Source of the DNA: Sebaldella termitidis ATCC 33386 | Lineage (GTDB): Bacteria > Fusobacteriota > Fusobacteriia > Fusobacteriales > Leptotrichiaceae | Assembly (NCBI RefSeq): GCF_000024405.1 | Contig: NC_013517.1 | Coordinates: 1,116,001-1,180,000, forward strand | Reading direction: 5' to 3' | DNA length: 64,000 nt | Shown here: positions 27,137 to 46,369 of the stretch, piece after piece | How positions within the stretch are numbered: position 1 is the stretch's first letter | Layout: every line of letters starts with the position of its first letter | Translations under genes and position numbers: made by a program | Notes under the pieces: model-generated | What the model was told of the DNA's origin: nothing | Databases searched by the model: none | What the model saw: only the letters and a program-made list of their open reading frames with translations

Positions 27137-27306
27137 GAAACAGAACAAACTTAATAGCTTTAAATAATTAATTCTTTGTATACAGAAATGTATGACTGGG
27201 TTTATATTTTAAAAATATTAAAATTGTTGAGATCAAAAAAATTCTTATAAGCTTTTATTCTAATGGATAATTAAATTGAAGAAAGTTTAAAATGAAGGAG
27301 AAAAAA

Positions 27307-30300
27307 ATGTTAATAAAATATAAGATGAGAGTACTTTTACTGATAGTATTTATTTTCAGTTTTCAGTTTTTAAGAGCTGAAGTCGGAGTTATCAGTGCAA
27401 ATGAATTAGAAGTGATACTTGCCAGAGATGACGTAGATGCAATAGTACTTGAAGACAATATAATACTTACAAAAAATATTGACGTGACTCCGAGAAATGT
27501 AAAAATACGGGGAAATGGTTATGATCTAACCAGAGCCGGATATTATCTTAATGCTACTGGAACGAGCGGCTCTTATGATATTACATTTGACGGGATTTCA
27601 TCTGGCGGGAGCAGTTATTTACTGTATAATTCCACGGCATCAAGCTGGAATGTAAAAATCACAGGAATAAATGAGCTTAGTAGTACAGGCGGGACAATAT
27701 TTCGTGAAACTGCGAGCAGCAGTACTTTTACTGTAGATACAGGCGCGGTAGCTAATATGTCAGGCGGCGGAGCAGCTAACGGAATGATAAGCAATTATAA
27801 AAATAATGTAATAAAAGGTGAAGCAAATATATCTACTTCAAGCAGCGGAAGAGGAATATACACAACAGCTGCAGATGCTGTGCTTCAAGTAACAAGCAGC
27901 GGAAAATTAACAACTAATTCTTCGGCAGGTACTACATACGAAGCTGTGGGACTGTCAAATGGCGGAACAGTAGATATTAACGGTCAATGGACAGCGTCAG
28001 TTTACGGGGGAAAGGCTTTTGAAGGGGGAAAAGCAACAACTTTTAATGTAGACGGCGGAAATGTAAAATTTTCCACAGGTGTTGGTTATTCAGCAGCATC
28101 AGTGGCAGGAGCGGCTTATGAACAGGGAAGCGGGGCTGCCGGTACAATAAATATAAAAAATAACGGAACTATGGTTATAGAGGGAAAATCTGCGTATGGG
28201 ATAAACAGCAGTGCTAATTCATCTTATGATTTTAATGTAAATGTAGAAAGAGGAAGTACGCTTAATGCATTTGGAGTTACGAACGGACTTCGTACAGTTA
28301 CTATAACAGGAGCTGTTATCAAGCTAAATGTAAAAGGAACAGCGGAAATAACTTCAAATTCAGGTCCTGCTATACAGGGCGGTAATAAGACAAATATACT
28401 TGTAGACAGTGGAAAACTTACTGCTAATTCAGCAACGGACAACGCATTTTTAACAAACGGATACGGGACAGATATAAAAGCGATAAACAGCGGAACTATA
28501 GATTTCAGTTCAAGCGGGACAACAGCTGCTTCCAGAGTAATTTATATATCGGATGCGACTGCCACCAATGTAAGTAATTTTGAAATTTTAAGCGGTTCAA
28601 AATTTATTGTAACACATAAGGGAGCAGGAAACGGAATATATATGGATGATACATCCGATACTACAATTACTGTAGACGGCTCTGGGTCAGAATTCAAAGT
28701 AGAAGCTCCGAACGGCTCGTATGCTTTGTATACACAAAAGTACGGAACGGATTTTTATGTTACGAACGGTGCAAAAGCAGAATTCATATCAGGCAGAGCC
28801 GGTTCAAATACATTTTATCTTTCAGATGCAGGGTCGCCAAGTAATATTAATATACTAGGCGGAGCTTCATTTAATGTAACAAATAACGGAACAGGAGCGT
28901 CACGAGGGATATATACTGATGAGGGAACGACAATAATAAATCTTGATAATTCCGAATTAAACGTAAATGTTCCGAATGTGACAGGGACAGGATATGGTAT
29001 ATATATTTATAATCCTACGACTACAATTAAAGCAGATAATAAATCAAAAATAAATATAAATACCGGAGGAAGCGGCAGCGCAGCAGCTTTAAGAACCGGA
29101 ACGGGAAATACAAAGATTACAGTTCAGGGGGCTTCTCAAATAAAAGCAATGAATAATTCTTCCGGCGGAGCTGTACTTGAACTGAATTCCGGCGGAGAAT
29201 TTAATGTGACCGGTGCTGATTCACAAGCAAATATAGAAATAACAAATTCATCAAATTCAAGCAGTGCAGTTTCGGGAACTTCATCAGGTTTTACAATAAA
29301 TCTTACTAACCTGGCAGAAATGTATATTTCAAACAGAAGCTCGTCAAACGCTACATTAAATGCAGGCGGAGGAGTTGTATTCAATGATCCGTCAGCATAT
29401 GACGTGAAAAATCTCGGCGGAGGTCCTGCTATTTATAATGCAACAACGGCAACAGCCTTAACACTGGTAAATACAGATATAACGATGTGGGATAAAAGTA
29501 ATTCGCCCGGATTCAGCAGCAGCAGTATTTTAGATGTATGGTCGGATTTAAATGCGAATTTATTAAGAACAGGGTCCACGACAGTTGCTCCGGGAAGTAA
29601 AGGAACAACTTCGGTAACAATGAGTAATATAGGACGTATAACAGCATTTGAAAAAAGTGCAAAAAAAGCAACAATAGCCGGAGGAACCAGTACTGTTATT
29701 GATTCCAAAACCGGAACCTATTATCCGGGAAGTACTATAATATATGAAGTGACGTATAAAAATGATTCGAATTTCACAGTTGCTCAGGCAGTAGTAGTCA
29801 AGGACAAATTATCTGAAATACAGACAGCTCTGGCTGACGGGACAACAGGGCAGGCATTCAAAAGCTGGACAATAACAGCTTCAAATGCACTTGGATCATC
29901 AGGAACTTCAAATGGAACTACTTTGGGAACATATTCCGATAATGCAGATTTAGATACAATAATAGATATAGCAATAGGAGACAGTGTAACATATAAAATT
30001 ACTGCAACAGCAGCAGATACAGCAGTAGGAAATATAGTGAATACAGCTTTGATCGGAACTGCAGATGTAGAACCGAGCATAACATATACACCGCAAAGTC
30101 CTTCTCTGACTACTGCAAAAGCAGACGGGATAACAGGAACAAATACGGGAATATATTATGCAAACGGGATAATAACATATAAGCTGACGATTTCCAATGC
30201 TTCGAATACAGGCTTTGCAGATAATGTATCAGTTTCAGACCAGCTGTCGGCAATAAAAACAGCATTAAATGATTCTACGAACGGTTCGGCATTTATAAAC

Positions 30301-33300
30301 TGGACAATAAAAAAACCGGTATTAAACGGGACAGGAACATCATCAACAATAAGTACAGATATTACAGATACAACAGCAGATCTGACAGATACTGCAGATA
30401 TTGCACCCGGAGGAAGTATTGAATACACAATTACAGCTAAAGTAAATCCAAAAGCAATAGGTGAAATAACAAATATACCTGTAATAAATTCAGCATCTGT
30501 ACCTGAAGCGACTACAAAACATACATATACAAAATTAGATGCTTCAAAGATATATAAAGGCTCTGCTGAAGGTTATATACCCGGGACAGAAACAACATAT
30601 GAAATTATTGTAACAAACAACGGGGCAGGAACAGCAGGCGGAGTAACAGTAGAAGATATGCTGTCAAATGAAAAAACATATAAACTTGATGGAACAACAG
30701 AAATACCAGCCTATACAAGCTGGACAATAACATCAGCGGTATCAGGAACAGTATCAGGAAACAGCAGCGGAATAACAACAGATCTAAACGATACTCTGAC
30801 TATAGGGCCGGGATCTTCGGTTACTTATACTGTTAAGGCAATAGTAAATTCAGAGGCTGCGGGAGTAATAAGCAATACTGCAAAAGTTGGCGGTGAAGAG
30901 ATAAAAGCAGCAGATATAAATCCTGTAAATGATAAAAGCAAAGTGCAGGCAGTCAAAAAACTGGAGACAAATCTTCCCGGTAATCTTTATAATCCGGGAC
31001 AGATAGTAGAGTATACAATAGAAATAGAAAATACGGGAACTTCTCCTGTAAAAGGATATAACATACAGGATATAAAAAATGAACAGAAAACAAAAGATCT
31101 TCTGGGAAATGAAATAAATGCATTTGATTCATGGGTAGTGACAGGGACAATAATCAGCGGTGAAGCTAAAAATGTAACATTGACTTCAGAATCAACAGAT
31201 TTAAATGATACCATAGATTTAGGCCCGGGAGCTAAAGTATATTATTCTGTTGAGGTACAAATCAGTCCTAATGCAGCAGATGCGATAATAAATACAGCTA
31301 AGGCAGACGGGCAGGAAATAAAATCTCCTGTTATAAATCCTGAAAAAGGACTTAGTAATATAGTTGCAACAAAGACATATACCGGACCGGCACAGGGTTA
31401 TACACCGGGTCAGCAGGTAACTTATGAACTGAAACTGGGCAATCCGGGGACAGCCTCAGCAATCGGGGTAACAGCTGTAGATATGCTGTCGGCAGAAACA
31501 ACAACCGATATAAACGGTACATTAATTCCCGCATACACAAGCTGGACAATAACATCGCAAATACTTGGAGTAGTGTACGGCAATAGTACCGGAATAACAA
31601 CAGATTTAAATGATACTTTAAATATAGGAGTTGGAGGATTAGTTGTTTATACGATAACAGCTACAGTGAATCCTGAAGCAGCAGGGAAGATAGGGAATAC
31701 AGCAAAGGTAAACGGAAATGACATAACTGATCCAAGCGGTCCGAAAGACCCGGAAAATGGTAAGGATAATGTAACAGCAGTGAAAACGTATACTGGACCA
31801 TCACAGGGATATACACCAGGCGGACAGGTAACTTATGAATTAAAGCTGACGAATACAGGTACAGCATTAGCCACAGGAGTTACAGCAATAGATACATTAT
31901 CATCAGAAACAACAACTGACATAAATGGGGCATCAGTTCCGGCATATACAAGCTGGACAATAACATCAGCGAAAACCGGTTCGGTATCTGGAAACAGCAG
32001 CGGAATAACAGCTGACTTAAACGATACATTAAATATGGGAGCAGGAGCCACAGTAACTTATACAATAACGGCAACAGTAAATACAGATGCAGCAGGTAAA
32101 ATAGGTAATACAGCAAAAATAAATGATACAGATGTAACAGATCCAAGCGGACCAAAAGACCCGGAAGACGGGAAGAGCAATGTAACTGCAACAAAAACAT
32201 ATACCGGACCGTCACAAGGCTATACACCGGGTCAGCAGGTAACATATGAACTAAAACTGACGAACAGCGGTACAGCATTAGCTATAGGGGTAACCGCAAT
32301 AGATGCACTATCCTCAGAAACAACAACAGATATAAACGGCGCTTCAATTCCGGCATACACGAGCTGGACAATAACATCAATGAAAACTGGTTCAGTATCA
32401 GGAAACAGTACTGGAATAACAACAGATTTGAATGATACATTAAATATGGGAGCAGGAGCTACAGTAACTTATACAATAACAGCAACAGTAAATACAGATG
32501 CAGCAGGTAAAATAGGTAATACAGCAAAAATAAATGATACAGATGTAACAGATCCAAGCGGACCAAAAGATCCGGAAGATGGGAAGAGTAATGTAACTGC
32601 AGTGAAAACATACACAGGACCATCACAGGGATATACACCAGGCGGACAGGTAACATATGAACTGAAACTTACAAATACAGGAACAGCATTAGCTACAGGA
32701 GTAACAGCAGTAGACACATTATCCTCAGAAACAACAACAGACATAGACGGCGGATCAGTTCCGGCATATACAAGCTGGACAATAACATCAGTAAAAACTG
32801 GTTCAGTAACTGGGAACAGCACTGGAATAACGACTGATTTAAATGATACATTGACAATGGCTGGAGGCTCAACAGTAACCTATACAATAACAGCAACAGT
32901 AAATACAGATGCGGCAGGAAAGATAGGAAACACAGCAAAGGTAAATGGAAATGACATAACAGACCCAAGCGGGCCAAAAGACCCGGAAGATGGAAAGAGT
33001 AATGTAACTGCAACAAAAACATATACCGGACCATCACAAGGGTATACACCGGGTGGACAGGTAACATATGAGCTAAAACTGACGAACACTGGTACAGCGT
33101 TAGCTACAGGAGTAACTGCGGTAGATACACTGTCCTCAGAAACAACAACCGATATAAATGGTTCATCAGTTCCGGCATATACAAGCTGGACAATAACATC
33201 AGTAAAAACTGGATCAGTATCTGGAAACAGCAGTGGAATAACAACTGATTTAAATGATACGTTGACAATGGCTGGAGGCTCAACAGTAATCTATACAATA

Positions 33301-36300
33301 ACAGCAACAGTAAATACAGATGCGGCAGGCAAAATAGGGAATACAGCCAAAATAAACGGTACAGATGTAACAGATCCAAGCGGACCAAAAGACCCCGAAG
33401 ACGGGAAGAGTAATGTAACAGCAACAAAAGTATATACCGGACCATCACAAGGCTATACACCGGGTGGACAGGTAACTTATGAACTAAAACTGACAAACAG
33501 TGGTACAGCATTAGCATTGGGAGTAACAGCTGTAGATGCATTATCCTCAGAAACAACAACCGACATAAACGGCTCATCAGTCCCGGCATATACAAGCTGG
33601 ACGATAACATCAGTGAAAACCGGTTCGGTATCTGGAAACAGCAGCGGAATAACGACTGATCTAAATGATACATTGACGATGGCTGGAGGTTCCACAGTAA
33701 CCTATACAATAACAGCAACAGTAAATACAGATGCGGCAGGAAAAATAGGTAATACAGCAAAAATAAATGGTACAGATGTAACTGACCCAAGCGGACCAAA
33801 AGACCCGGAAGACGGAAAGAGTAATGTAACAGCAGTGAAAACATATACCGGACCATCACAGGGATATACACCAGGTGGACAGGTAACATATGAACTGAAA
33901 CTAACAAACAGCGGTACAGCGTTAGCTACAGGAGTAACAGCAGTAGATACATTATCGTCAGAAACAACAACCGACATAGACGGTGGATCAGTTCCTGCAT
34001 ACACAAGCTGGACAATAACATCAGTGAAAACTGGTTCGGTATCTGGAAACAGTACTGGAATAACGACTGATCTGAATGATACTTTGACAATGTCTGGAGG
34101 TTCCACAGTAACTTATACAATAACAGCAACAGTAAATACAAATGCGGCAGGAAAAATAGGGAATACAGCAAAAATAAATGATACAGATGTAACAGATCCA
34201 AGCGGACCAAAAGACCCGGAAGACGGGAAGAGTAATGTAACCGCAGTGAAAACATATACCGGACCATCACAGGGGTACACACCAGGCGGACAGGTAACAT
34301 ATGAACTGAAACTGACAAACAGTGGGACAGCGTTAGCCACAGGGGTAACAGCAGTAGATGCATTATCCTCAGAAACAACAACTGACATAAATGGTTCGTC
34401 AATTCCTGCATACACAAGCTGGACAATAACATCAGTGAAAACTGGTTCGGTATCCGGAAACAGCACTGGAATAACGACAGATCTAAATGATACATTGACA
34501 ATGTCTGGAGGTTCCACAGTAACTTACACAATAACAGCAACAGTAAATACAGATGCGGCAGGAAAAATAGGGAATACAGCTAAGATAAATGGTACAGATG
34601 TAACAGACCCAAGCGGGCCAAAAGATCCTGAAGATGGAAAGAGTAATGTAACGGCAACAAAAACATATACCGGACCATCACAGGGGTACACACCAGGTCA
34701 GCAGGTAACATATGAATTAAAACTGACAAACAGCGGTACAGCGTTAGCCACAGGGGTAACAGCAGTAGATATACTATCCTCAGAAACAACAACCGATATA
34801 AATGGCGCTTCAGTTCCTGCATACACAAGCTGGACAATAACATCAGTGAAAACTGGTTCGGTATCCGGAAACAGCACTGGAATAACGACAGATCTAAATG
34901 ATACATTGACAATGTCTGGAGGTTCCACAGTAACTTACACAATAACAGCAACAGTAAATACAGATGCGGCAGGAAAAATAGGGAATACAGCTAAGATAAA
35001 TGGTACAGATGTAACAGACCCAAGCGGGCCAAAAGATCCTGAAGATGGAAAGAGTAATGTAACGGCAACAAAAACATATACCGGACCATCACAGGGGTAC
35101 ACACCAGGTCAGCAGGTAACATATGAACTAAAACTGACGAACAGCGGTACAGCGTTAGCCACAGGAGTAACAGCAGTAGATACACTATCCTCAGAAACAA
35201 CAACCGACATAAACGGTTCATCAGTTCCGGCATATACAAGCTGGACGATAACATCAGTGAAAACCGGTTCAGTATCTGGAAACAGCAGCGGAATAACAAC
35301 CGACTTAAGCGATACATTAAATATGGGGGCAGGAGCTACAGTAACTTATACGATAACAGCGACAGTGAATCCAGATGCAGCAGGAAAGATAGGGAACACA
35401 GCAAAGATAAATGATACAGATATAACAGATCCAAGCGGGCCAAAAGATCCTGAAGATGGAAAGAGTGATGTAACGGCAACAAAAACATACACAGGACCAT
35501 CACAGGGTTATACACCGGGTGGACAGGTAACATATGAACTGAAACTTACAAATACAGGAACAGCATTAGCTACAGGAGTAACAGCTGTAGATGCATTATC
35601 GTCAGAAACAACAACTGACATAAATGGTTCATCAATTCCTGCATACACAAGCTGGACAATAACATCAGTAAAAACCGGTTCGGTATCTGGAAACAGTACT
35701 GGAATAACGACTGATCTGAATGATACATTGACAATGTCTGGAGGTTCCACAGTAACTTATACAATAACAGCAACAGTAAATACAGATGCGGCAGGAAAGA
35801 TAGGGAACACAGCAAAAGTAAATGGAAATGACATAACAGACCCAAGCGGACCAAAAGATCCAGAAGATGGAAAGAGTAATGTAACGGCAACAAAAACATA
35901 CACAGGACCATCACAGGGCTATACACCAGGTCAGCAGGTAACTTATGAATTAAAACTGACAAACAGCGGTACAGCATTAGCTACAGGAGTAACAGCAATA
36001 GATATACTATCCTCAGAAACAACAACCGACATAAACGGTACATCAGTTCCGGCATATACAAGCTGGACAATAACATCAGTAAAAACTGGTTTAGTGTCCG
36101 GAAACAGCAGCGGAATAACAACTGATTTAAATGATACGTTGACAATGGCTGGAGGCTCAACAGTAATCTATACAATAACAGCAACAGTAAATACAGATGC
36201 GGCAGGCAAAATAGGGAATACAGCTAAAATAAACGGTACAGATGTAACAGATCCAAGCGGTCCAAAAGACCCCGAAGACGGGAAGAGTAATGTAACAGCA

Positions 36301-39300
36301 ACAAAAGTATATACCGGACCGTCACAAGGCTATACACCGGGTCAGCAGGTAACATATGAACTAAAACTGACGAACACTGGTACAGCGTTAGCTACAGGAG
36401 TAACTGCGGTAGATACACTGTCCTCAGAAACAACAACCGATATAAATGGTTCATCAGTTCCAGCTTATACAAGCTGGACGATAACATCAGTGAAAACCGG
36501 TTCAGTATCTGGAAACAGCAGCGGAATAACAGTTGACTTAAGTGATACATTAAATATGGGGGCTGGAGCTACAGTAACTTACACAATAACAGCAACAGTA
36601 AATACAGATGCAGCAGGCAAAATAGGGAATACAGCAAAGGTAAATGGAAATGACATAACAGATCCAAGCGGACCAAAAAACCCGGAAGATGGAAAGAGCA
36701 ATGTAACGGCAACAAAAACATACACAGGACCATCACAAGGGTATACACCGGGTGGACAGGTAACATATGAACTAAAACTGACGAATACTGGCACAGCGTT
36801 AGCTACAGGAGTAACTGCGGTAGATACACTGTCAGCAGAAACAACAACTAACATAAACGGTTCATCAGTTCCTGCATATACAAGCTGGACAATAACGTCA
36901 GTGAAAACCGGTTCAGTATCTGGAAACAGCAGCGGAATAACAGCTGACTTAAGCGATACATTAAATATGGGAGCAGGAGCCACAGTAACCTATACGATAA
37001 CAGCGACAGTAAATCCAGCTGCAGCAGGTAAGATAGGGAATACAGCGAAAGTAAACGGAAATAATATAACAGATCCAAGCGGTCCTAAAGATCCTGAGAA
37101 TGGTAAAGATAATGTAACTGCAGTGAAAACATACACAGGACCATCACAGGGTTATACACCAGGTGAGCAGGTAACTTATGAACTGAAATTAACAAATAGC
37201 GGTACAGCGTTAGCTACAGGAGTAACAGCAGTAGATGTGTTGTCAGGGGAAACAACAACAAATATAAACGGCGCTTCAGTTCCTGCATACACGAGCTGGA
37301 CAATAACATCAGTGAAAACTGGTTCAGTATCTGGAAATAGCAATGGAATAACTACTGATCTAAATGATACATTAGCAATGTCTGGGGGTTCAACGGTAAC
37401 TTATACAATAACAGCAACAGTAAATCCAGATGCAGCAGGCAAAATAGGAAATACAGCGAAAGTGAACGGAAATAACATAACAGATCCAAGCGGACCAAAA
37501 GACCCGGAAGACGGAAAGAGTAATGTAACTGCAACAAAAACATACACAGGACCATCGCAGGGCTATACACCAGGCCAGCAGGTAACATATGAACTAAAAC
37601 TGACGAACACTGGTACAGCGTTAGCTACAGGAGTAACTGCGGTAGATACATTATCATCAGAAACAACAACAGACATAGACGGCGGATCAGTTCCTGCATA
37701 CACAAGCTGGACAATAGCATCCTCAAAAACTGGTTCGGTATCTGGAAACAGTAATGGTATAACAACTGATTTAAATGATACATTGACGATGGCTGGTGGC
37801 TCAACGGTAACTTATACAATAACAGCGACAGTAAATACAGATGCAGCAGGCAAAATAGGAAACACAGCGAAAGTAAACGGAAATAATATAACAGACCCAA
37901 GCGGACCAAAAGACCCGGAAGATGGAAAAAGTAATGTAACAGCAGTGAAAACATACACAGGACCATCACAAGGATATACACCGGGCGGACAGGTAACATA
38001 TGAACTAAAACTGACGAACACTGGTACAGCGTTAGCTACAGGAGTAACTGCGGTAGATACACTATCATCAGAAACAACAACCAACATAAACGGTTCATCA
38101 GTTCCTGCATATACAAGCTGGACAATAACATCCTCAAAAACTGGTTCAGTATCCGGAAACAGTAATGGTATAACAACAGACTTAAATGATACATTGATAA
38201 TGTCTGGAGGTTCCACAGTAACCTATACAATAACAGCAACAGTAAATCCAGATGCAGCAGGCAAAATAGGAAATACAGCAAAGGTAAACGGAAATAACAT
38301 AACAGATCCAAGTGGACCAAAAGACCCGGAAGATGGAAAAAGTAATGTAACAGCAGTGAAAACATACACAGGACCATCACAAGGGTATACACCGGGCGGA
38401 CAGGTAACATATGAACTGAAACTAACAAATAGCGGTACAGCGTTAGCCACAGGAGTAACAGCTGTAGACGCATTATCGTCAGAAACAACAACCAATATAA
38501 ATGGTTCATCAGTTCCTGCATACACAAGCTGGACAATAACATCAGTGAAAACCGGCTCAGTATCCGGAAACAGTAATGGTATAACAACAGACTTAAATGA
38601 TACATTGATAATGTCTGGAGGTTCTACAGTAACTTATACAATAACGGCAACAGTAAATACAGATGCTGCTGGCAAAATAGGGAATACAGCAAAGGTAAAT
38701 GGAAATAACATAACAGATCCAAGCGGACCAAAAGACCCTGAAGATGGAAAAAGTAATGTAACAGCGACAAAAACATATACCGGACCATCACAGGGCTATA
38801 CGCCAGGTCAGCAGGTATCATATGAACTGAAACTGACTAACAGCGGAACGGCATTGGCTATAGGAGTAACAGCAATAGATACATTATCATCAGAAACAAC
38901 AACCGATATAAACGGAACATCAGTTCCGGCATATACAAGCTGGACAATAACATCAGTGAAAACCGGCTCAGTATCTGGAAACAGTAGCGGAATAACAGCT
39001 GACTTGAATGATACATTAAATATGGGAGCAGGTTCCACAGTAACTTATACAATAACAGCAACAGTAAATACAAATGCAGCTGGAAAAATTGGGAATACGG
39101 CAAAAGTAAACGGAAATAACATAACAGATCCGAGCGGACCAAAAGATCCTGAAAATAATGTAAATAATATCAGGATAAATAAAGAACTGGTAACAGATTT
39201 GTCAAACGGCTATACACCTGGTCAGACAGTACAATATAAGATAACAGTTGAAAATCAAGGTACTGTCTTAGCATTGGGGTATAATGTCAAGGATATAAGA

Positions 39301-42000
39301 ACAGATCAGAAAACTACGGATATGAATGGGACAGCAATAGATACATTTACAAGCTGGCAGATAAAGGGAACTGTTATATCCGGTTCAGCAGCGGGAGTAA
39401 CTTCAAATACTACAGGGGATCTAAATGATACAATTTCACTTTCTTCGGGCGGAAAAGTAGAATATCTGATAACTGCAGTAATAAATACTAATGCAGCAGG
39501 TAAAATTACTAATAAAGGTGTAGGAAATGGAAATCCTGTAGAACCGTCGACACCTCCTGTTGATCCTGAAAATAATAAAAGTAATATTTCAGCTAAAAAA
39601 GAATTGATAACAGATTTATCAAACGGCTATACACCGGGTCAGACAGTACAGTATAAAATAGTGCTGGAAAATACAGGAACTACGCTGGTAAGCGGCTATG
39701 AGATAAAAGATATAAGAACCAATCAAAAAACTACAGATATAAGCGGAAACAGCATAGATTCATTTACAGGATGGACAATAACTGGTACTGTTACAAACGG
39801 GACAGGAACAGGAGTGACGCCAAGTACTACAGGTGATTTAAATGATACTGTATCATTATCTGCCGGCGGAAAGATAGAGTATATGATATCAGCAGTAATA
39901 AATACTGATGCGGCAGGTAAAATTACAAATGCAGGATTAGCTGACGGAAATAAAATAGAACCGTCAACACCGCCTGCAGAGCCTGTAAATGACAAAAGTA
40001 AAGTAACTGTAAAAAAAGAATTAGTTACAAGCTTATCAAATGGTTACATGCCGGGGCAGACTATAGAATACAAAATTACTTTAAAAAATACCGGAGTTTC
40101 GCCTGTAAATAACTATAGTATCAAAGATATAAGGGCAGATCAGAAAACGACTGATTTACTTGGAAACAGCATAGATTCATTTACAAGCTGGACGATAGCG
40201 GGAGCTGTTACAGCCGGAACAGGCGTAGGAGTAACACCAAATACCACTGGTGATTTAAATGATATACTGACACTGTCACCGGGAGCTGTAGTAGAATATA
40301 CAGTAAATGCAGTTATCAATACTAATGCAGCAGGAAAAATCACAAATGCAGGATTAGCTGACGGAAATAGTGTAGAACCGTCAACACCGTCTGTAGATCC
40401 TGCAACAGATAACAGTAAAGTAACAGCGGTAAAAGAAATAATCACAAACTTTGAAAACGGCTATACTGCGGGTGAAAGAGTAGAATATAAAATTACTGTT
40501 GAAAATAAAGGGAATGTAATTGCTAAAGGAAATGTAGTAAAAGATATAAGACTGGATCAAAAAACTTTTGATTTTGACGGAAATACAATAAATGCCTTTG
40601 AAGGATGGACAGTAAGCGGAAAAGTAGTAAGCGGGCAGGCTTATGGTGTAACTGGAACTACAACTTCCGATCTGAATGATACTATTAATCTGGGACCAAA
40701 TTCAAAAGTAGAATATATTGTTTCAGCAGTTATACATAGAGATGCTTATAATGATATTATAAATACAGGTTTTCTGAATGGTACTGAACTAAAAACAGCT
40801 TCCATAAAAGCAAAACCAGAAGCAGCAGATCTTACTATAAGTATTACTGCATCAAAAGATATAGTAGAGTTAGGCGAAACAATAGAGTATACTGTAAGGG
40901 TTTATAACAAAGGAAGAGTAGCAAGAACAGGATTGAATGTTAAAAATTTACTGCCTGTAGGATTTAGCTATATTGATGAAACTGTAGCATATAAAAAGGA
41001 CAGTTCAAAATCAAGAACAGCATCAGCGGCAGGCGGCAGACTATCGGCATCTAATACTGGAGATGTAATCTTCAGTACTTTCGATCTGAACCCTAAAGAA
41101 GAAATAATAATAACTTATGCTGCTAAAATAGGAACTACAATACAGCCGGGAAAATACAAAACATCTGCAATTGCAAGGGAAGATAGCCAGGAAGTCACTG
41201 GTGCTGCAAGTGCAACGGTTCAGGTAACAGGAAACAGTATTGCGAATAGTGCAAGCATAATAGGAAAAGTCTTTGAAGATGTGAACGGAGACGGAATACA
41301 AAATGATGCAGGAGCAAATAAAATAATAATTAAGGATGCAGTAAACGGATCAGATTATGTTGATAATACAGCAGAATTAATTATGCTGGATGCATCTGGA
41401 AAAGAAATATCAAGAAAGAAAGTTAATGATAATGATTTGATTTTTAACGGTATAAAGATAGAAAAAATGGAAGGAAAATCATTAAACAAGACTCTAAAAG
41501 GAGTAAATAAAGTAATTGTGAGAACAGAAATAAAAACTCCCGAAATACAGGAAACATTCATGACAATTACGACAAAAGAAGGAATGGATCTTACATATAA
41601 TAAAGGAATAATAAGTACTCTGGGCAGCAAGGGAGATGTGAAGTCGGGAATGTCATCACAGGAATTCTATATAAGTAAAGAAATAAAAAGAAGCGGTACT
41701 AAGTATATTCAGGAAGTTACAATAGAGAATGTGGGAATTCAGGAAGAGGGAATAGCAGGTGCAAAATTAAGAACTCCGACAGGAATAACTGTAACTACTG
41801 ATGAGTACGGCAGATATCATGTTCCTGATGAATATGTAGAAAAGGAAAGAGGGAAAAATTTCATAATAAAAGTAGATGAAGCATCACTGCCGAAAGGAAT
41901 GAAAGTAATTACCGAAAATCCTAGAGTAAAATTAATAACACAATACGGATTAAATGAATTCAACTTTGGAGTGCAGTCTGAGAAAAGAGGTGAGGAATAG
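27307..42000 (+). CDS. Giant secreted surface protein with tandem DUF11-like repeats
   Basis: About 4,897 residues from ATG 27307, which has AAGGAG six bases ahead (an ATG at 27292 overlaps that site). Residues 1-22 are a signal peptide (KMRVLLLIVFIFSFQFLRA). Residues ~25-770 are Gly/Ser/Thr-rich and beta-helix-like, similar in texture to the autotransporter passenger before it. About four diverged DUF11-like units (~775-1351) precede 19 units of exactly 137 residues (1352-3954), then four more diverged units to ~4490. A final DUF11 domain (ITASKDIVELGETIEYTVRV), an SdrD-B-like segment (IIGKVFEDVNGDGIQND, about 4650) and a carboxypeptidase-regulatory-like end (GIAGAKLRTPTGITVTTDEY) follow. 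It has no LPXTG signal and no barrel, so anchoring probably needs a partner, most likely the next gene. Confidence 0.93.
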   Translation: MLIKYKMRVLLLIVFIFSFQFLRAEVGVISANELEVILARDDVDAIVLEDNIILTKNIDVTPRNVKIRGNGYDLTRAGYYLNATGTSGSYDITFDGISSGGSSYLLYNSTASSWNVKITGINELSSTGGTIFRETASSSTFTVDTGAVANMSGGGAANGMISNYKNNVIKGEANISTSSSGRGIYTTAADAVLQVTSSGKLTTNSSAGTTYEAVGLSNGGTVDINGQWTASVYGGKAFEGGKATTFNVDGGNVKFSTGVGYSAASVAGAAYEQGSGAAGTINIKNNGTMVIEGKSAYGINSSANSSYDFNVNVERGSTLNAFGVTNGLRTVTITGAVIKLNVKGTAEITSNSGPAIQGGNKTNILVDSGKLTANSATDNAFLTNGYGTDIKAINSGTIDFSSSGTTAASRVIYISDATATNVSNFEILSGSKFIVTHKGAGNGIYMDDTSDTTITVDGSGSEFKVEAPNGSYALYTQKYGTDFYVTNGAKAEFISGRAGSNTFYLSDAGSPSNINILGGASFNVTNNGTGASRGIYTDEGTTIINLDNSELNVNVPNVTGTGYGIYIYNPTTTIKADNKSKININTGGSGSAAALRTGTGNTKITVQGASQIKAMNNSSGGAVLELNSGGEFNVTGADSQANIEITNSSNSSSAVSGTSSGFTINLTNLAEMYISNRSSSNATLNAGGGVVFNDPSAYDVKNLGGGPAIYNATTATALTLVNTDITMWDKSNSPGFSSSSILDVWSDLNANLLRTGSTTVAPGSKGTTSVTMSNIGRITAFEKSAKKATIAGGTSTVIDSKTGTYYPGSTIIYEVTYKNDSNFTVAQAVVVKDKLSEIQTALADGTTGQAFKSWTITASNALGSSGTSNGTTLGTYSDNADLDTIIDIAIGDSVTYKITATAADTAVGNIVNTALIGTADVEPSITYTPQSPSLTTAKADGITGTNTGIYYANGIITYKLTISNASNTGFADNVSVSDQLSAIKTALNDSTNGSAFINWTIKKPVLNGTGTSSTISTDITDTTADLTDTADIAPGGSIEYTITAKVNPKAIGEITNIPVINSASVPEATTKHTYTKLDASKIYKGSAEGYIPGTETTYEIIVTNNGAGTAGGVTVEDMLSNEKTYKLDGTTEIPAYTSWTITSAVSGTVSGNSSGITTDLNDTLTIGPGSSVTYTVKAIVNSEAAGVISNTAKVGGEEIKAADINPVNDKSKVQAVKKLETNLPGNLYNPGQIVEYTIEIENTGTSPVKGYNIQDIKNEQKTKDLLGNEINAFDSWVVTGTIISGEAKNVTLTSESTDLNDTIDLGPGAKVYYSVEVQISPNAADAIINTAKADGQEIKSPVINPEKGLSNIVATKTYTGPAQGYTPGQQVTYELKLGNPGTASAIGVTAVDMLSAETTTDINGTLIPAYTSWTITSQILGVVYGNSTGITTDLNDTLNIGVGGLVVYTITATVNPEAAGKIGNTAKVNGNDITDPSGPKDPENGKDNVTAVKTYTGPSQGYTPGGQVTYELKLTNTGTALATGVTAIDTLSSETTTDINGASVPAYTSWTITSAKTGSVSGNSSGITADLNDTLNMGAGATVTYTITATVNTDAAGKIGNTAKINDTDVTDPSGPKDPEDGKSNVTATKTYTGPSQGYTPGQQVTYELKLTNSGTALAIGVTAIDALSSETTTDINGASIPAYTSWTITSMKTGSVSGNSTGITTDLNDTLNMGAGATVTYTITATVNTDAAGKIGNTAKINDTDVTDPSGPKDPEDGKSNVTAVKTYTGPSQGYTPGGQVTYELKLTNTGTALATGVTAVDTLSSETTTDIDGGSVPAYTSWTITSVKTGSVTGNSTGITTDLNDTLTMAGGSTVTYTITATVNTDAAGKIGNTAKVNGNDITDPSGPKDPEDGKSNVTATKTYTGPSQGYTPGGQVTYELKLTNTGTALATGVTAVDTLSSETTTDINGSSVPAYTSWTITSVKTGSVSGNSSGITTDLNDTLTMAGGSTVIYTITATVNTDAAGKIGNTAKINGTDVTDPSGPKDPEDGKSNVTATKVYTGPSQGYTPGGQVTYELKLTNSGTALALGVTAVDALSSETTTDINGSSVPAYTSWTITSVKTGSVSGNSSGITTDLNDTLTMAGGSTVTYTITATVNTDAAGKIGNTAKINGTDVTDPSGPKDPEDGKSNVTAVKTYTGPSQGYTPGGQVTYELKLTNSGTALATGVTAVDTLSSETTTDIDGGSVPAYTSWTITSVKTGSVSGNSTGITTDLNDTLTMSGGSTVTYTITATVNTNAAGKIGNTAKINDTDVTDPSGPKDPEDGKSNVTAVKTYTGPSQGYTPGGQVTYELKLTNSGTALATGVTAVDALSSETTTDINGSSIPAYTSWTITSVKTGSVSGNSTGITTDLNDTLTMSGGSTVTYTITATVNTDAAGKIGNTAKINGTDVTDPSGPKDPEDGKSNVTATKTYTGPSQGYTPGQQVTYELKLTNSGTALATGVTAVDILSSETTTDINGASVPAYTSWTITSVKTGSVSGNSTGITTDLNDTLTMSGGSTVTYTITATVNTDAAGKIGNTAKINGTDVTDPSGPKDPEDGKSNVTATKTYTGPSQGYTPGQQVTYELKLTNSGTALATGVTAVDTLSSETTTDINGSSVPAYTSWTITSVKTGSVSGNSSGITTDLSDTLNMGAGATVTYTITATVNPDAAGKIGNTAKINDTDITDPSGPKDPEDGKSDVTATKTYTGPSQGYTPGGQVTYELKLTNTGTALATGVTAVDALSSETTTDINGSSIPAYTSWTITSVKTGSVSGNSTGITTDLNDTLTMSGGSTVTYTITATVNTDAAGKIGNTAKVNGNDITDPSGPKDPEDGKSNVTATKTYTGPSQGYTPGQQVTYELKLTNSGTALATGVTAIDILSSETTTDINGTSVPAYTSWTITSVKTGLVSGNSSGITTDLNDTLTMAGGSTVIYTITATVNTDAAGKIGNTAKINGTDVTDPSGPKDPEDGKSNVTATKVYTGPSQGYTPGQQVTYELKLTNTGTALATGVTAVDTLSSETTTDINGSSVPAYTSWTITSVKTGSVSGNSSGITVDLSDTLNMGAGATVTYTITATVNTDAAGKIGNTAKVNGNDITDPSGPKNPEDGKSNVTATKTYTGPSQGYTPGGQVTYELKLTNTGTALATGVTAVDTLSAETTTNINGSSVPAYTSWTITSVKTGSVSGNSSGITADLSDTLNMGAGATVTYTITATVNPAAAGKIGNTAKVNGNNITDPSGPKDPENGKDNVTAVKTYTGPSQGYTPGEQVTYELKLTNSGTALATGVTAVDVLSGETTTNINGASVPAYTSWTITSVKTGSVSGNSNGITTDLNDTLAMSGGSTVTYTITATVNPDAAGKIGNTAKVNGNNITDPSGPKDPEDGKSNVTATKTYTGPSQGYTPGQQVTYELKLTNTGTALATGVTAVDTLSSETTTDIDGGSVPAYTSWTIASSKTGSVSGNSNGITTDLNDTLTMAGGSTVTYTITATVNTDAAGKIGNTAKVNGNNITDPSGPKDPEDGKSNVTAVKTYTGPSQGYTPGGQVTYELKLTNTGTALATGVTAVDTLSSETTTNINGSSVPAYTSWTITSSKTGSVSGNSNGITTDLNDTLIMSGGSTVTYTITATVNPDAAGKIGNTAKVNGNNITDPSGPKDPEDGKSNVTAVKTYTGPSQGYTPGGQVTYELKLTNSGTALATGVTAVDALSSETTTNINGSSVPAYTSWTITSVKTGSVSGNSNGITTDLNDTLIMSGGSTVTYTITATVNTDAAGKIGNTAKVNGNNITDPSGPKDPEDGKSNVTATKTYTGPSQGYTPGQQVSYELKLTNSGTALAIGVTAIDTLSSETTTDINGTSVPAYTSWTITSVKTGSVSGNSSGITADLNDTLNMGAGSTVTYTITATVNTNAAGKIGNTAKVNGNNITDPSGPKDPENNVNNIRINKELVTDLSNGYTPGQTVQYKITVENQGTVLALGYNVKDIRTDQKTTDMNGTAIDTFTSWQIKGTVISGSAAGVTSNTTGDLNDTISLSSGGKVEYLITAVINTNAAGKITNKGVGNGNPVEPSTPPVDPENNKSNISAKKELITDLSNGYTPGQTVQYKIVLENTGTTLVSGYEIKDIRTNQKTTDISGNSIDSFTGWTITGTVTNGTGTGVTPSTTGDLNDTVSLSAGGKIEYMISAVINTDAAGKITNAGLADGNKIEPSTPPAEPVNDKSKVTVKKELVTSLSNGYMPGQTIEYKITLKNTGVSPVNNYSIKDIRADQKTTDLLGNSIDSFTSWTIAGAVTAGTGVGVTPNTTGDLNDILTLSPGAVVEYTVNAVINTNAAGKITNAGLADGNSVEPSTPSVDPATDNSKVTAVKEIITNFENGYTAGERVEYKITVENKGNVIAKGNVVKDIRLDQKTFDFDGNTINAFEGWTVSGKVVSGQAYGVTGTTTSDLNDTINLGPNSKVEYIVSAVIHRDAYNDIINTGFLNGTELKTASIKAKPEAADLTISITASKDIVELGETIEYTVRVYNKGRVARTGLNVKNLLPVGFSYIDETVAYKKDSSKSRTASAAGGRLSASNTGDVIFSTFDLNPKEEIIITYAAKIGTTIQPGKYKTSAIAREDSQEVTGAASATVQVTGNSIANSASIIGKVFEDVNGDGIQNDAGANKIIIKDAVNGSDYVDNTAELIMLDASGKEISRKKVNDNDLIFNGIKIEKMEGKSLNKTLKGVNKVIVRTEIKTPEIQETFMTITTKEGMDLTYNKGIISTLGSKGDVKSGMSSQEFYISKEIKRSGTKYIQEVTIENVGIQEEGIAGAKLRTPTGITVTTDEYGRYHVPDEYVEKERGKNFIIKVDEASLPKGMKVITENPRVKLITQYGLNEFNFGVQSEKRGEE
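31360..39168 (+). repeat. Tandem array of nineteen 411-bp coding repeats
   Basis: Unit starts at 31360, 31771, 32182, 32593, 33004, 33415, 33826 and so on, at a constant 411-base step, to 38758; 39169 begins a diverged unit. The first unit is the most diverged, the other 18 are very alike. Each encodes 137 residues with landmarks TYTGPSQGYTPG, YELKLTN.GTALA, SSETTTDI, PAYTSWTI, GNSSGITTDLNDTL, YTITATVN and TDPSGPKDPEDGKS. No unit is frameshifted. The strict period implies expansion by unequal recombination under coding constraint. Confidence 0.97.
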
Positions 42001-42001
42001 C

Positions 42002-45000
42002 ATGTTGAATCTTAAAAATAAAAAATCTCTGTTGTTTTTTTCGATATGCCTGAACTCACTTCTGTTGACGGGAAAGGGCTTAAACGGCCCTATCCCTGAT
42101 CAGTCTGAAAGATTTATAGTAAAAAACAACAGAGAAGATGAAGAAATTAAAACTGAAAATACTGACGGATCAGATGATCCTGATGAAGTAATACCGGATC
42201 CTGAGAGTTTGACAACAGATACAATAGAGATAGAGGAAGTTTTATATAAAAGTGAATCGGATAATAAATTTGATGAAACACAGTTAAACAGAGAAAATCA
42301 CAGGATAAATGTGGGGAATGGAACTATATGGACTTCTACTGAGGTTATAAAAGTAGATCCTGAAATGAATGTGGAACTGCTTACCAGCCCGGTAGTAAAC
42401 GGAAGGAAATTTACGGAAGAAGAACTTGATTTCAGGGTAAAACTTAATTACAGTGATTATATTACAGGATATGAACTAAAAATTTACAGGGGGGAAGATA
42501 AAAATACACTAAATCCTCTGGCAGTGATTAAAGGCAAAGAATTAAAAAATGAAGATACGATAAGCTGGAAACCAAAAAGCTCCGACTATTTTATTCCGGG
42601 AAATCAGCTTACATATAAATTAAAAGTATATGATAAATCAGGAGATTTTGATGAAACAAATCTGGGAATAATAGATTTGATAAGCAGAAAGTCAAAGGAA
42701 AATACATATGATTTTGGAAAAGAATATAAAGATCAAGTATACAGTAACGCTGAATTAAGAATAAGAAATATAAAAAGTACTTTTGGAAAAGTAATTATCT
42801 CAGGAAATAATCTTACCAACATCCAAACCTTGAAGATAAACGGGGATAATTACTCGATAGATAAAGAAACAGATGCTGTAAAAGTGGAAAGATTGATTCC
42901 TTCGGGAGAGAGCAGCCTTTTGATACAGGCAATAGATAAAAACGGAAATACAGAAGAGCATAATCTAAAAGTTGAAATAGACAACAGATATTTCTTTGGT
43001 GTCGGAATAGCCGACTTTACAATAGGGCAGTATTCCAATACCGATGAATATAAGGATATCGACGGCAATGAAATGAACGGAAAACTTTTCAAACAGGGAA
43101 GGATAGCTTTTGACGGAGAAGCAAAGTTTAATGATAATCTGAGGGGAAGACTGCAGTTCGACACTAAGGACAGTGATATAAAGGATTTATTTGATGATTT
43201 TTTCAAAAGAGACAGAGAAGATGTATTTTTTAGAATAAGAGAAGATAATTTTTATCCCACATACGGTGATGATTCTATAATAACAAATGCAAACAGCTAT
43301 TTACAGCAGGGGAAAATATTTGGTCAGCTGGAGTATAAGAAGTCCAGTATAATGTGGGGAACTTACGGTACAGGACTGAGCGGTCCGGAATTTTCACAGG
43401 TGAACAGAACATTATACGGAGCTAAAGGAGAGCTTATAAGCTCTAAAACCACAAGCTTCGGTGAAGATAAATATAATATTACGGCTTTTGGCTCAGAAGC
43501 TGAAACAATTCATGCAAAAAATGAATTTTTAGGAACAGGGGGAAGTCTTTATTTTCTAAAAAACGGAGAAGTCATCAGGGATACTGAAAAAATAAGTGTA
43601 GAATTAAGGAATAAAGACTCGGGGATAACAGAAAAAGTAGTTTACCTCGTAGAAGGAAAAGATTATGAAATAGATAATTATCAGGGAAGAGTTATTCTGA
43701 GAAAACCGCTTAAAGACCATGTGGCAGATTCATACAGTGATTTGATACAGGAAGACGGAAAGTCCGGAAGTGAATTATATCTTGTGGCAGAATATGATTA
43801 TGAGCCGGGAACATCAGAATCATTGAGCAATATGACTTATGGAGGAAGAGGAAGTGCATGGATAGGTGAACATCTGCAAATAGGTGGTACTTACATAAAG
43901 GAAGAAAAGGATAACAGTTCTGATTATGAAGTTTATGGCGGAGATGCCACTTTAAGATATTCGGACGGCACATATTTAAGAGGAGAATACAGTGAATCCA
44001 AATCAAGAAATATAGATAATTATTATATATCTTATAACGGTGGCCTGGAGTTTACCAATAAAAACAGCAATCCTCTTGAAAAAAGCAGCGGAAGAGCCTA
44101 TTCACTCAGGGGAGTATTAAATCTTTATGATTTGAACAAGAACTTATTTAAGCCGTATGGAAATGAAGTAAACGGCTGGTATTTAAATGTAGGAAGCGGT
44201 TTTTCCGGCGGGCAGTACAGTAATGACTATGCTCTGGAGGCTTACGGCGGGGAAATAAAGCTGAATCCTGCAGACGGATTATATTTCCGTACAAAATATG
44301 AGAGTACGGAAAAAGATTACTATTTAGACGGAAGAATAGAGACTAAGGAATCTATAACCGGACAGATAGAATATGCAGTAAGTGAAAAACTGAGATTATC
44401 AGCGGCATTGGAAAATAAGACAGAAAAAATGACGAATGAAGAGGATAAAGAAGCACTCATTCTTGCAGCAAGAGCTGATTATAAAGTAACTCCCAATCTG
44501 GATATTTACGGAGTAATTCAGGAAGCTGTAAAGCAGAAGAATTATGATAACAGATCACTTTACAGACTGGGAGTGGAAAGCAGATGGAATGACAGACTGA
44601 CAGTAAAAGCAGAAGGTAAGCTCGGGGATAATGATACATCAGGTGCAGAGATTACTGCTGATTATAAAATAACTAATAATTATAGTGTTTATATGGGATA
44701 TGATCTTTGGAACAGTATCTCGGAAAATTCTGATAAAGTTGTAATCGGTCAGAGGGCAAGAATAACAGACAAGTTTTCAGTATATGCAGAAAATCAGTTT
44801 TTAAAAGAAAGAGATGAAAAAAGTTATCTGGAATCATACGGAGCTGACTACAGTCTTACTGATAATTACAGAGCAGGAGTTTCATATCAGTATGGAAGGG
44901 TAAATCCCAACAACGGACCTTCTTATGACAGAACAGCAGTGAGTCTGTCATCAAGTTTTATAAAATCGAATTTTCAGCTTCAAAATAAATTGGAATACAG

Positions 45001-45670
45001 AATGGATAAAGGAGATGCTACAGATGAAGTCCAGTATGTATTGCTGAATTCGGCAAGCTATAAAGTAACAGAATCTTTGAGATTTCTTGCCAAAGGTGAT
45101 TATACGATTTCCAAAGATAAAAGGACAAACAGAACTATTAATGAGTATGCTGAAGCGGGAATAGGAATAGCTTACAGACCTATACACAATAACAGGCTTA
45201 ATATGCTGGGCAGATACAGCTATATATTAAATAAAGAAAATGATACTGACAGGGAAACTTCTTATCTTGAAGAATCAAAACACATATTTGAAGCAGAGGG
45301 GAATTACAAACTTACCAAAAGATTTACAACAGGTATGAAAGCAGCAGTAAAATTTGAAGATGACTATTATAAAACTTCAGACGGAAGAAATATAAAAGTA
45401 GAAAAGAACTTTGCACTGCTGGGATTCAGACAGGAATATGAAGTGATAAAGGACTGGGATCTGATGGCAGAATACCGGTTTCTTGCTGATATAGGAGAAA
45501 ATAATAATACGGAGAATTTAAAACACGGGGCGTTAGTAGGAGTATACAAGCATATAGGAGAAAATCTGAAAATAGGTGTAGGATATAATTTTTCAAATTT
45601 TCAGGATGATCTGAGGGATACAGATATAAATGCTCAGGGATGGTTTATAAATATAATAGGGAAATTTTAA
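42002..45670 (+). CDS. Large outer-membrane beta-barrel protein, predicted partner of the giant repeat protein
   Basis: 1,222 residues from ATG 42002, two bases after the upstream stop, with GAGGTGAGG as ribosome site; the longer frame from 41954 overlaps the giant gene without a site. A signal peptide (KKSLLFFSICLNSLLLTG) is followed by an acidic segment, Ig-like domains (~110-330) and a long barrel region of amphipathic strands ending GWFINIIGKF with terminal Phe. Residues ~515-560 (GTGGSLYFLKNGEVI ... GKDYEIDNYQGRVILRKPL) are a block I recall from large proteobacterial outer-membrane proteins encoded with DUF11/SdrD proteins. Repeated strands such as YGADYSLTDNYRAGVSYQYG support a big barrel. 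Probable surface anchor or exporter. Confidence 0.82.
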   Translation: MLNLKNKKSLLFFSICLNSLLLTGKGLNGPIPDQSERFIVKNNREDEEIKTENTDGSDDPDEVIPDPESLTTDTIEIEEVLYKSESDNKFDETQLNRENHRINVGNGTIWTSTEVIKVDPEMNVELLTSPVVNGRKFTEEELDFRVKLNYSDYITGYELKIYRGEDKNTLNPLAVIKGKELKNEDTISWKPKSSDYFIPGNQLTYKLKVYDKSGDFDETNLGIIDLISRKSKENTYDFGKEYKDQVYSNAELRIRNIKSTFGKVIISGNNLTNIQTLKINGDNYSIDKETDAVKVERLIPSGESSLLIQAIDKNGNTEEHNLKVEIDNRYFFGVGIADFTIGQYSNTDEYKDIDGNEMNGKLFKQGRIAFDGEAKFNDNLRGRLQFDTKDSDIKDLFDDFFKRDREDVFFRIREDNFYPTYGDDSIITNANSYLQQGKIFGQLEYKKSSIMWGTYGTGLSGPEFSQVNRTLYGAKGELISSKTTSFGEDKYNITAFGSEAETIHAKNEFLGTGGSLYFLKNGEVIRDTEKISVELRNKDSGITEKVVYLVEGKDYEIDNYQGRVILRKPLKDHVADSYSDLIQEDGKSGSELYLVAEYDYEPGTSESLSNMTYGGRGSAWIGEHLQIGGTYIKEEKDNSSDYEVYGGDATLRYSDGTYLRGEYSESKSRNIDNYYISYNGGLEFTNKNSNPLEKSSGRAYSLRGVLNLYDLNKNLFKPYGNEVNGWYLNVGSGFSGGQYSNDYALEAYGGEIKLNPADGLYFRTKYESTEKDYYLDGRIETKESITGQIEYAVSEKLRLSAALENKTEKMTNEEDKEALILAARADYKVTPNLDIYGVIQEAVKQKNYDNRSLYRLGVESRWNDRLTVKAEGKLGDNDTSGAEITADYKITNNYSVYMGYDLWNSISENSDKVVIGQRARITDKFSVYAENQFLKERDEKSYLESYGADYSLTDNYRAGVSYQYGRVNPNNGPSYDRTAVSLSSSFIKSNFQLQNKLEYRMDKGDATDEVQYVLLNSASYKVTESLRFLAKGDYTISKDKRTNRTINEYAEAGIGIAYRPIHNNRLNMLGRYSYILNKENDTDRETSYLEESKHIFEAEGNYKLTKRFTTGMKAAVKFEDDYYKTSDGRNIKVEKNFALLGFRQEYEVIKDWDLMAEYRFLADIGENNNTENLKHGALVGVYKHIGENLKIGVGYNFSNFQDDLRDTDINAQGWFINIIGKF

Positions 45671-45742: not shown

Positions 45743-46369
45743 TCAAAATTCAGTATAATCATATACAGAATTTTCCAAAGTCCATATATTATCTGCTTTT
45801 TTGGCTTTTATACTGATAATCTGACTTTTGAAATCTTTTATTTTAGGGACATATTCTAGTACAGATTCAGAAATTACAATAAAAGTAAGAAAATAAAGCT
45901 CATTTACTTCCTGATCAGAAAATTTTTCAATATCTGTAGCATAAGCACTGCCAAGTCTTTCAATAAGTTTTTTATCTATAAAATCATTAAAGTCTTTATT
46001 TTGGATAAGTATATCTATATCAGGAACACTTATTTTTACTAAAACAAGAGCGTCACCGGGAGAAAGGTAATGAATTTCCTGAATTTCATATTTTGTGGTC
46101 AGAAATTTAATATTAAGAAGCAGATAGGAGAAATAAGAAACCTGCAGCATTTCTTCAGAAATATTTTCAGAATGAATATCAAGTTTTTCTATTTCTGTTT
46201 TTTGTCTGGAAACAGAATCTTTAAATGCCTGTTCTATAAGAAGATTATTTTGTGTAAGTGTGTCTTTTTTTAGTCTGAGATCGGCTTCTTTCGTAGTCTT
46301 ATATCCCGGAGCTGAAAAGCATACAATAAAAAATAAAATCAGGATAAGAATATTTGCTGATCTTCTCAT
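45743..46369 (-). CDS. Putative secreted or membrane-anchored hypothetical protein
   Basis: 208 residues, not recognised. The N-terminus (MRRSANILILILFFIVCFSAPG) is a signal peptide; the cysteine could be a lipidation site but FIVC departs from a good lipobox, so signal peptidase I cleavage is also possible. The rest is alpha/beta with charged helices (ADLRLKKDTLTQNNLLIEQ) and a C-terminal strand-rich part; no catalytic motif is seen. AGGTGAT precedes the ATG on the minus strand. It stands alone, converging with the barrel gene. Confidence 0.75.
   Translation of the reverse strand: MRRSANILILILFFIVCFSAPGYKTTKEADLRLKKDTLTQNNLLIEQAFKDSVSRQKTEIEKLDIHSENISEEMLQVSYFSYLLLNIKFLTTKYEIQEIHYLSPGDALVLVKISVPDIDILIQNKDFNDFIDKKLIERLGSAYATDIEKFSDQEVNELYFLTFIVISESVLEYVPKIKDFKSQIISIKAKKADNIWTLENSVYDYTEF

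Follow-up and report, generated by a model that had tools for sequence, protein, structure and literature searches.

DUF11 domains, which have been crystallised and renamed CLIPPER, hold a Lys-Asn isopeptide bond beside an Asp residue, and stalks locked in this way are at home in surface adhesins; the main text of that study mentions neither a barrel nor a secretion partner for them (PMC12617251). In the SprB-SprF-PorE set of type 9 secretion, by comparison, PorP-like outer-membrane (OM) barrels of 14 strands work beside SprA, itself a barrel of 36 strands (PMC10994853). Here we describe two adjacent genes in a 64,000-nucleotide stretch (hereafter the window, in whose numbering positions are given) of the Sebaldella termitidis ATCC 33386 genome (4.49 Mb, three contigs): a DUF11-type fibre gene encoding 4902 amino acids (aa) and, directly after it, a gene for a predicted OM barrel protein of 1222 aa. 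With a probability of roughly 0.6, we propose that fibre and barrel form one surface-display unit in which the barrel is dedicated to exporting the fibre across the OM and holding it there.

Functionally, the pair comes closest to SprB-SprF-PorE: both have a giant adhesin built of repeats whose C-terminal module is conserved, an adjacent dedicated OM barrel and, in some cases, a peptidoglycan-binding partner (PMC9143113). The present pair differs in the size of the barrel, for which roughly 40 strands are predicted in the window, in the existence of natural fibre-barrel fusions and in hosts outside Bacteroidota, and Pfam and NCBIfam scans of the barrel gave no PorP/SprF family match. The SprA/Sov translocon is likewise a very large single-chain OM barrel (Foldseek match with a template-modelling (TM) score of 0.14-0.20), but no sequence relation to it was found, the window chain is half as long as SprA, and it has a dedicated fibre. 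The fibre itself resembles DUF11/CLIPPER adhesins with OmpA-like anchors, such as Acinetobacter silvestris B9T28_05395 (PMC12617251), in its signal peptide, head and isopeptide-type stalk; unlike them it has no OmpA anchor, but many of its relatives carry an OmpA domain of this kind at their end. The first-pass annotation had placed the pair outside both two-partner and type V secretion, and the absence of their signatures from both proteins supports this. As in type Va autotransporters, the fused forms carry an N-terminal passenger and a C-terminal barrel in one chain, but the type Va barrel is a 12-strand PF03797 domain whereas a giant unrelated barrel is found here, usually encoded by a second gene, and Ig-like (immunoglobulin-like) domains and OmpA sit between passenger and barrel. 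The Pfam scan that found no PF03797 on fibre or barrel matched it at 125 bits on the gene directly upstream of the fibre gene (24013-27084, plus strand), a classical type Va autotransporter with AC_1 and a PF03797 beta-domain. Two-partner secretion (TPS, type Vb) also uses adjacent genes for a large exported protein and an OM barrel; in the present pair, however, the conserved recognition part lies at the C-terminus of the exported protein, and instead of the 16 strands and POTRA domains of TpsB the barrel has two Ig-like domains and its roughly 40 predicted strands. No POTRA or ShlB family was found on the barrel, and no TPS (haemagglutination activity) domain on the fibre, by Pfam scan.

The fibre open reading frame (ORF; 27292-42000, plus strand, as are all fibre and barrel features below) ends with TAG at 41998-42000, and the ATG of the barrel gene at 42002 lies one base past it, preceded by the Shine-Dalgarno-like GAGGTGAGG; the fibre-then-barrel tandem noted at first pass is thus as described. 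The fibre ends in a C-terminal module (its last 390 aa; 40792-41976) made up of the last DUF11 domain and an SdrD-like domain, into which a segment of about 145 aa is nested, and it is this module that is kept across phyla together with the barrel. A scan of public genomes using barrel patterns only gave at least 579 confirmed loci, of which the best 80 were analysed; arrangements beyond these closest loci may differ. The 80 come from Vibrionaceae, Lysobacteraceae, Kangiella, Granulosicoccaceae, Campylobacterota, Myxococcota, Nitrospirota, Krumholzibacteriota and others. The module was in the same ORF as the barrel at 7 of them and in an adjacent ORF at 69 (76/80 together), in agreement with the adjacency or fusion expected from the first-pass annotation. 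Two of the four exceptions (L112 and L144) lie at contig edges; L107 represents a subfamily with a DUF11 protein on the other side of the barrel, and the barrel frame at L070 is short and lacks the N-terminal domains. This conservation indicates that the pairing is real and not due to chance, and near-constant adjacency or fusion across several phyla therefore probably reflects one fibre-display machine. When the loci were searched for a further conserved gene, only an OmpA gene in Vibrionaceae emerged, other neighbours having no fixed place beside the barrel.

Natural fusions bear most directly on this relationship. Single chains that run from fibre through SdrD-like module to barrel were found at L039 (5264 aa), L040 (5263 aa), L041 (5303 aa), L078, L058 (1916 aa) and L062, and an OmpA domain stands between module and barrel in six more (L098, L100, L105, L128, L137 and L146). 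The hosts of fused proteins include several Fusobacteriota, Lysobacteraceae, Myxococcota, Nitrospirota and Krumholzibacteriota. The module and barrel share one frame in four Lysobacteraceae genomes (4258, 2532, 2031 and 1758 aa), which bears out the first-pass remark that the two occur together in single large proteobacterial proteins. At the Fusobacteriota junction, ...NKFNFS is followed no more than about 20 residues later by RIYLKEGAIW, with which the first Ig-like domain of the barrel begins. The piece of the fibre joined straight to the barrel in these fusions is the terminal SdrD-like segment (VTIENVG...GRYHVPDEY...NEFNFGV, 41716-41973 in the window). A tree of 106 barrels shows no fewer than five changes of the fused state (FastTree, with long branches; two of the rows counted as split are broken fusions). 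The idea that the pair is a split version of one protein is supported by these fusions, by adjacency across phyla and by the co-variation described below.

Several observations were made on individual branches of the family. In one genome (G005, L046:13755-13795) seven consecutive A residues and a TAG interrupt the fibre-barrel frame at its junction, at a site where the close relative L039 is fused; the cause may be a sequencing error, a recent mutation or transcriptional slippage. Vibrionaceae barrels (L071-L097, L143) branch from within those of Fusobacteriota, at high local support, a pattern suggestive of transfer between phyla. Cetobacterium-like genomes hold a second barrel subfamily (L052, L054 and L056; barrel at L052:14669-18223), with its DUF11 protein downstream and, upstream, genes that look fimbrial chaperone- and usher-like by eye. 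In Eleftheria terrae, a plasmid-borne barrel gene annotated as 'OmpA family protein' adjoins an 'SdrD B-like' fibre and reaches about 325 aa beyond the barrel match on the upstream side. A Pseudochrobactrum plasmid (L151:6803-12396) encodes a DUF11 partner of 595 aa beside a barrel annotated as a TonB-dependent receptor. In the annotated plasmid records, the pairs are entered either as 'DUF11 domain-containing protein' and 'TonB-dependent receptor' or as 'OmpA family protein' and 'hypothetical protein'.

Furthermore, the two partners co-vary strongly across genomes, as the first-pass annotation had anticipated. The barrel was found in 25/98 Fusobacteriota genomes, in some of them within single frames longer than 5000 aa; DUF11 and barrel occurred together in 24, the barrel alone in 1, DUF11 alone in 2 and neither in 71 (Fisher p 1.7e-19). 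None of 100000 shuffles within genera, the only control for kinship, did as well. The terminal SdrD-like part was present in 24 of the 25 genomes with a barrel and in none of the 73 other Fusobacteriota genomes. Among 99 Lysobacteraceae genomes (module threshold E up to 1e-15; genome completeness unstated), 41 had barrel and module, 1 the barrel only, none the module only and 57 neither, and the lone barrel-only genome holds just a barrel fragment. The S. termitidis genome contains exactly one barrel locus and one DUF11 locus, adjacent to each other.

We then consider the end of the fibre that the barrel accompanies. The earlier assignment of this end to an SdrD-like domain held for the family in that SdrD_B was called by Pfam in 23/48 relatives; on the window's own module Pfam made no such call, probably because of the nested insertion of about 145 aa, which the window copy shares with about half of its relatives. 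An AlphaFold (AF2) model of the module had a predicted local distance difference test (pLDDT) score of 88.8, and its best structural matches were Gram-positive pilins and SdrD. That the fibre has a signal peptide and no anchor, as also claimed at first pass, is true of the window fibre, in which neither a Pfam scan nor the translation revealed a C-terminal anchor domain (OmpA, CHU_C, Por_secre_tail or LPXTG), but it does not extend to the many relatives with an OmpA-type domain at that end. In these, one or two domains of the OmpA family (PF00691 on representatives) come after the module. When OmpA placement at the 80 loci was scored by a profile seeded on fibre-tail OmpA domains, the domain lay in the fibre tail at 39 loci, in a fused chain between module and barrel at 6, and in a separate gene directly after the barrel at 24 (the Vibrionaceae/Psychromonas type); with this profile it was not seen at 11, including that of the window's near relative. 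OmpA domains of this family bind peptidoglycan; the module end next to them should therefore face the periplasm, so that the fibre would leave head first, with the barrel as the obvious door.

The barrel gene has its own start and signal peptide (42002-42073, MLNLKNKKSLLFFSICLNSLLLTG, cleavage site placed by eye), and a mechanical ORF call at 41954 is an in-frame ATG upstream of this real start. A frameshift linking fibre and barrel genes in the window was rejected because the barrel has a separate start, ribosome-binding site and signal peptide. The Ig-like domains reported on the barrel at first pass can now be specified as two N-terminal beta-sandwiches in the AF2 model (42296-42901), predicted to lie on the periplasmic side. 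They are followed by the predicted OM beta-barrel of roughly 40 transmembrane strands (42986-45664; AF2, Foldseek), with the aromatic end GWFINIIGKF; the C-terminal strand is conserved in the family alignment. The conserved block GSLYFLKNGEVI...GKDYEIDNYQGRVIL, also picked out at first pass, was located at 43541-43699, where, by alignment and AF2, a small beta-domain is set into the early part of the barrel, and it holds many residues that are invariant across the barrel family. Computed from a 69-row alignment, the AF2 model (mean pLDDT 82.3) has long strands in construct residues 231-1123, about 40 as counted from DSSP elements, an approximate figure; the predicted strand number may possibly exceed the 36 of SprA. 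By standard barrel geometry, about 40 strands would give an estimated Calpha diameter near 7 nm, and therefore room for an Ig domain. The very long lipoprotein ApoB100 apart, the top Foldseek matches were the generic OM barrels BtuB, Cir, LptD, SlpA/SDBC, FimD and SprA, and TM-scores were all low (at most 0.22 when scaled to the length of the query), which is what one would expect if barrels of this size are absent from the solved structures. Neither Pfam nor NCBIfam gave an informative family match for the barrel, and phmmer found no relative of it in the PDB. Short Pfam matches to OmpA_membrane, DUF2490 and OMP_b-brl differed between members and were not used to identify the barrel. After the barrel gene lies a convergent gene (45743-46369, minus strand) with a weak match, below the family cut-off, to DUF1758 (putative peptidase).

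The fibre gene begins with a signal peptide of its own (27292-27381, MKEKKMLIKYKMRVLLLIVFIFSFQFLRA/EV, read from the translation with the cleavage site placed by eye; alternative ATG at 27307), so that each protein has a separate one. A head of about 760 aa follows (27382-29661), G/S/T/N-rich and repetitive; it possibly forms a beta-helix adhesive tip, the fold being a guess. No family in Pfam or NCBIfam matched this head (759 aa), and a sequence search with it found no second copy in its own genome. The stalk (30529-40833) consists of 25 DUF11/CLIPPER-type domains in tandem, mostly with a 137-aa period, and is matched by PF01345 at 469 bits and by TIGR04226 (RrgB_K2N_iso_D2) at 272 bits in Pfam and NCBIfam scans. 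The isopeptide triad Lys/Asp/Asn corresponds to K7, D43 and N116 of the repeat; it is invariant in 8/8 aligned repeats and, by eye, present in all repeats of the stalk. The CLIPPER structure 9IFR was not recovered when the PDB was searched by sequence with a single repeat and with a repeat profile, and the triad was therefore taken from TIGR04226 and the repeat alignment. Judged by its sequence, such a tandem stalk with the triad fits the CLIPPER/DUF11 class of isopeptide fibrillar adhesins. About 20 of the 137-aa repeats (31354-39576) are near-identical, and the many minus-strand ORFs and surplus terminator-like hairpins in this interval are by-products of the repeat DNA. Frames of 10057 aa (G024, contig C15) and 7675 aa (G035, contig C6) that hold the fibre C-terminal module rank among the longest fibres seen.

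How the two proteins work together can be read in other ways. The barrel might be an anchor only, holding the base of a fibre that reaches the surface by another route. SprF sets a precedent, since it is encoded beside SprB, binds the C-terminal 368 aa of SprB (PMC9143113) and holds SprB once the SprA translocon has exported it, and the pairing of PorP-like barrels with the peptidoglycan-binding lipoprotein PorE invites comparison with the OmpA-domain partners here. We nevertheless consider such a role unlikely: one-chain fibre-barrel fusions are hard to square with a separate translocon, the only other conserved companion is the OmpA gene of Vibrionaceae, and the predicted barrel would be much bigger than a holder requires. 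The SprA model TIGR04189 had no match in the S. termitidis genome, a search without a positive control in which the control genomes were also silent. Still less probable is that the fibre is a periplasmic spacer between the cell wall and a porin-like or receptor barrel. The OmpA domains beside the module, the predicted periplasmic N-terminus of the barrel, paired fibres of only about 600 aa and the annotation of some barrels as TonB-dependent receptors would all suit a tether of this kind; stalks of 25 Ig domains, and the 7675- and 10057-aa frames of relatives, far exceed the width of the periplasm, however, isopeptide-locked DUF11 stalks are a feature of surface adhesins (PMC12617251), and no TonB plug domain was detected on the barrel by Pfam and NCBIfam scans. 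Two separate surface proteins sharing an operon for regulation only could explain why each gene has a signal peptide and a ribosome-binding site of its own, but this reading is already disfavoured and appears very improbable given that fusion and fission have recurred (at least five changes on the tree), that the pairing extends across phyla, that the two co-occur almost without exception and that one specific C-terminal module is required.

Some points count against export and holding by the barrel. The strand number comes from one AF2 model of a kind of barrel with few precedents, which AF2 may have mis-closed, and because the window fibre lacks an OmpA domain, the case for a periplasmic base in S. 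termitidis is drawn from its relatives. At a few loci (L070, L107 and L111) the barrel has no fibre partner or has it on the downstream side. Some paired fibres are short, such as the 595-aa protein beside a homologous barrel on the Pseudochrobactrum plasmid, and a long external fibre is therefore not a fixed part of the pair. Surface position, export and interaction are, in addition, derived from sequence and models.

We favour the single display unit, which could work as follows. Fibre and barrel would each cross the inner membrane by means of their separate signal peptides, and the barrel would insert into the OM as a very wide pore with its two Ig-like domains in the periplasm. The C-terminal DUF11 and SdrD-like module would dock at the periplasmic side or at the mouth of the pore and stay there as the base, which in the fusions would be covalently continuous with the barrel. 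The 25 isopeptide-locked Ig domains and the N-terminal head would go out through the pore, head first, and the displayed fibre could form a stiff filament on the order of 100 nm, presumably serving adhesion. In many relatives, OmpA next to the module would tie the base to the cell wall; in S. termitidis this tie may be missing or supplied from elsewhere. Among the papers searched, none described a system of DUF11 fibre and barrel. The wider proposal is more tentative, and we rate it at somewhat under even odds: the family may represent a widespread, undescribed OM export system in which a single-chain barrel of about 40 strands passes partly or fully folded isopeptide-locked domains and retains the C-terminal module, often tied through OmpA to peptidoglycan, as a base, in one-protein, two-gene or three-gene forms.

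The barrel is thus a candidate exporter and base for giant isopeptide-locked fibres of Gram-negative bacteria in several phyla, in a family that has no Pfam or NCBIfam model and whose members are now annotated as hypothetical protein, TonB-dependent receptor or OmpA family protein. Recent surveys record such fibres with OmpA-like anchors, and the main text of the CLIPPER study names no exporter for them (PMC12617251). If its predicted size is true, the barrel may be the largest single-chain OM barrel proposed so far, and the fused forms allow a direct test of the topology.

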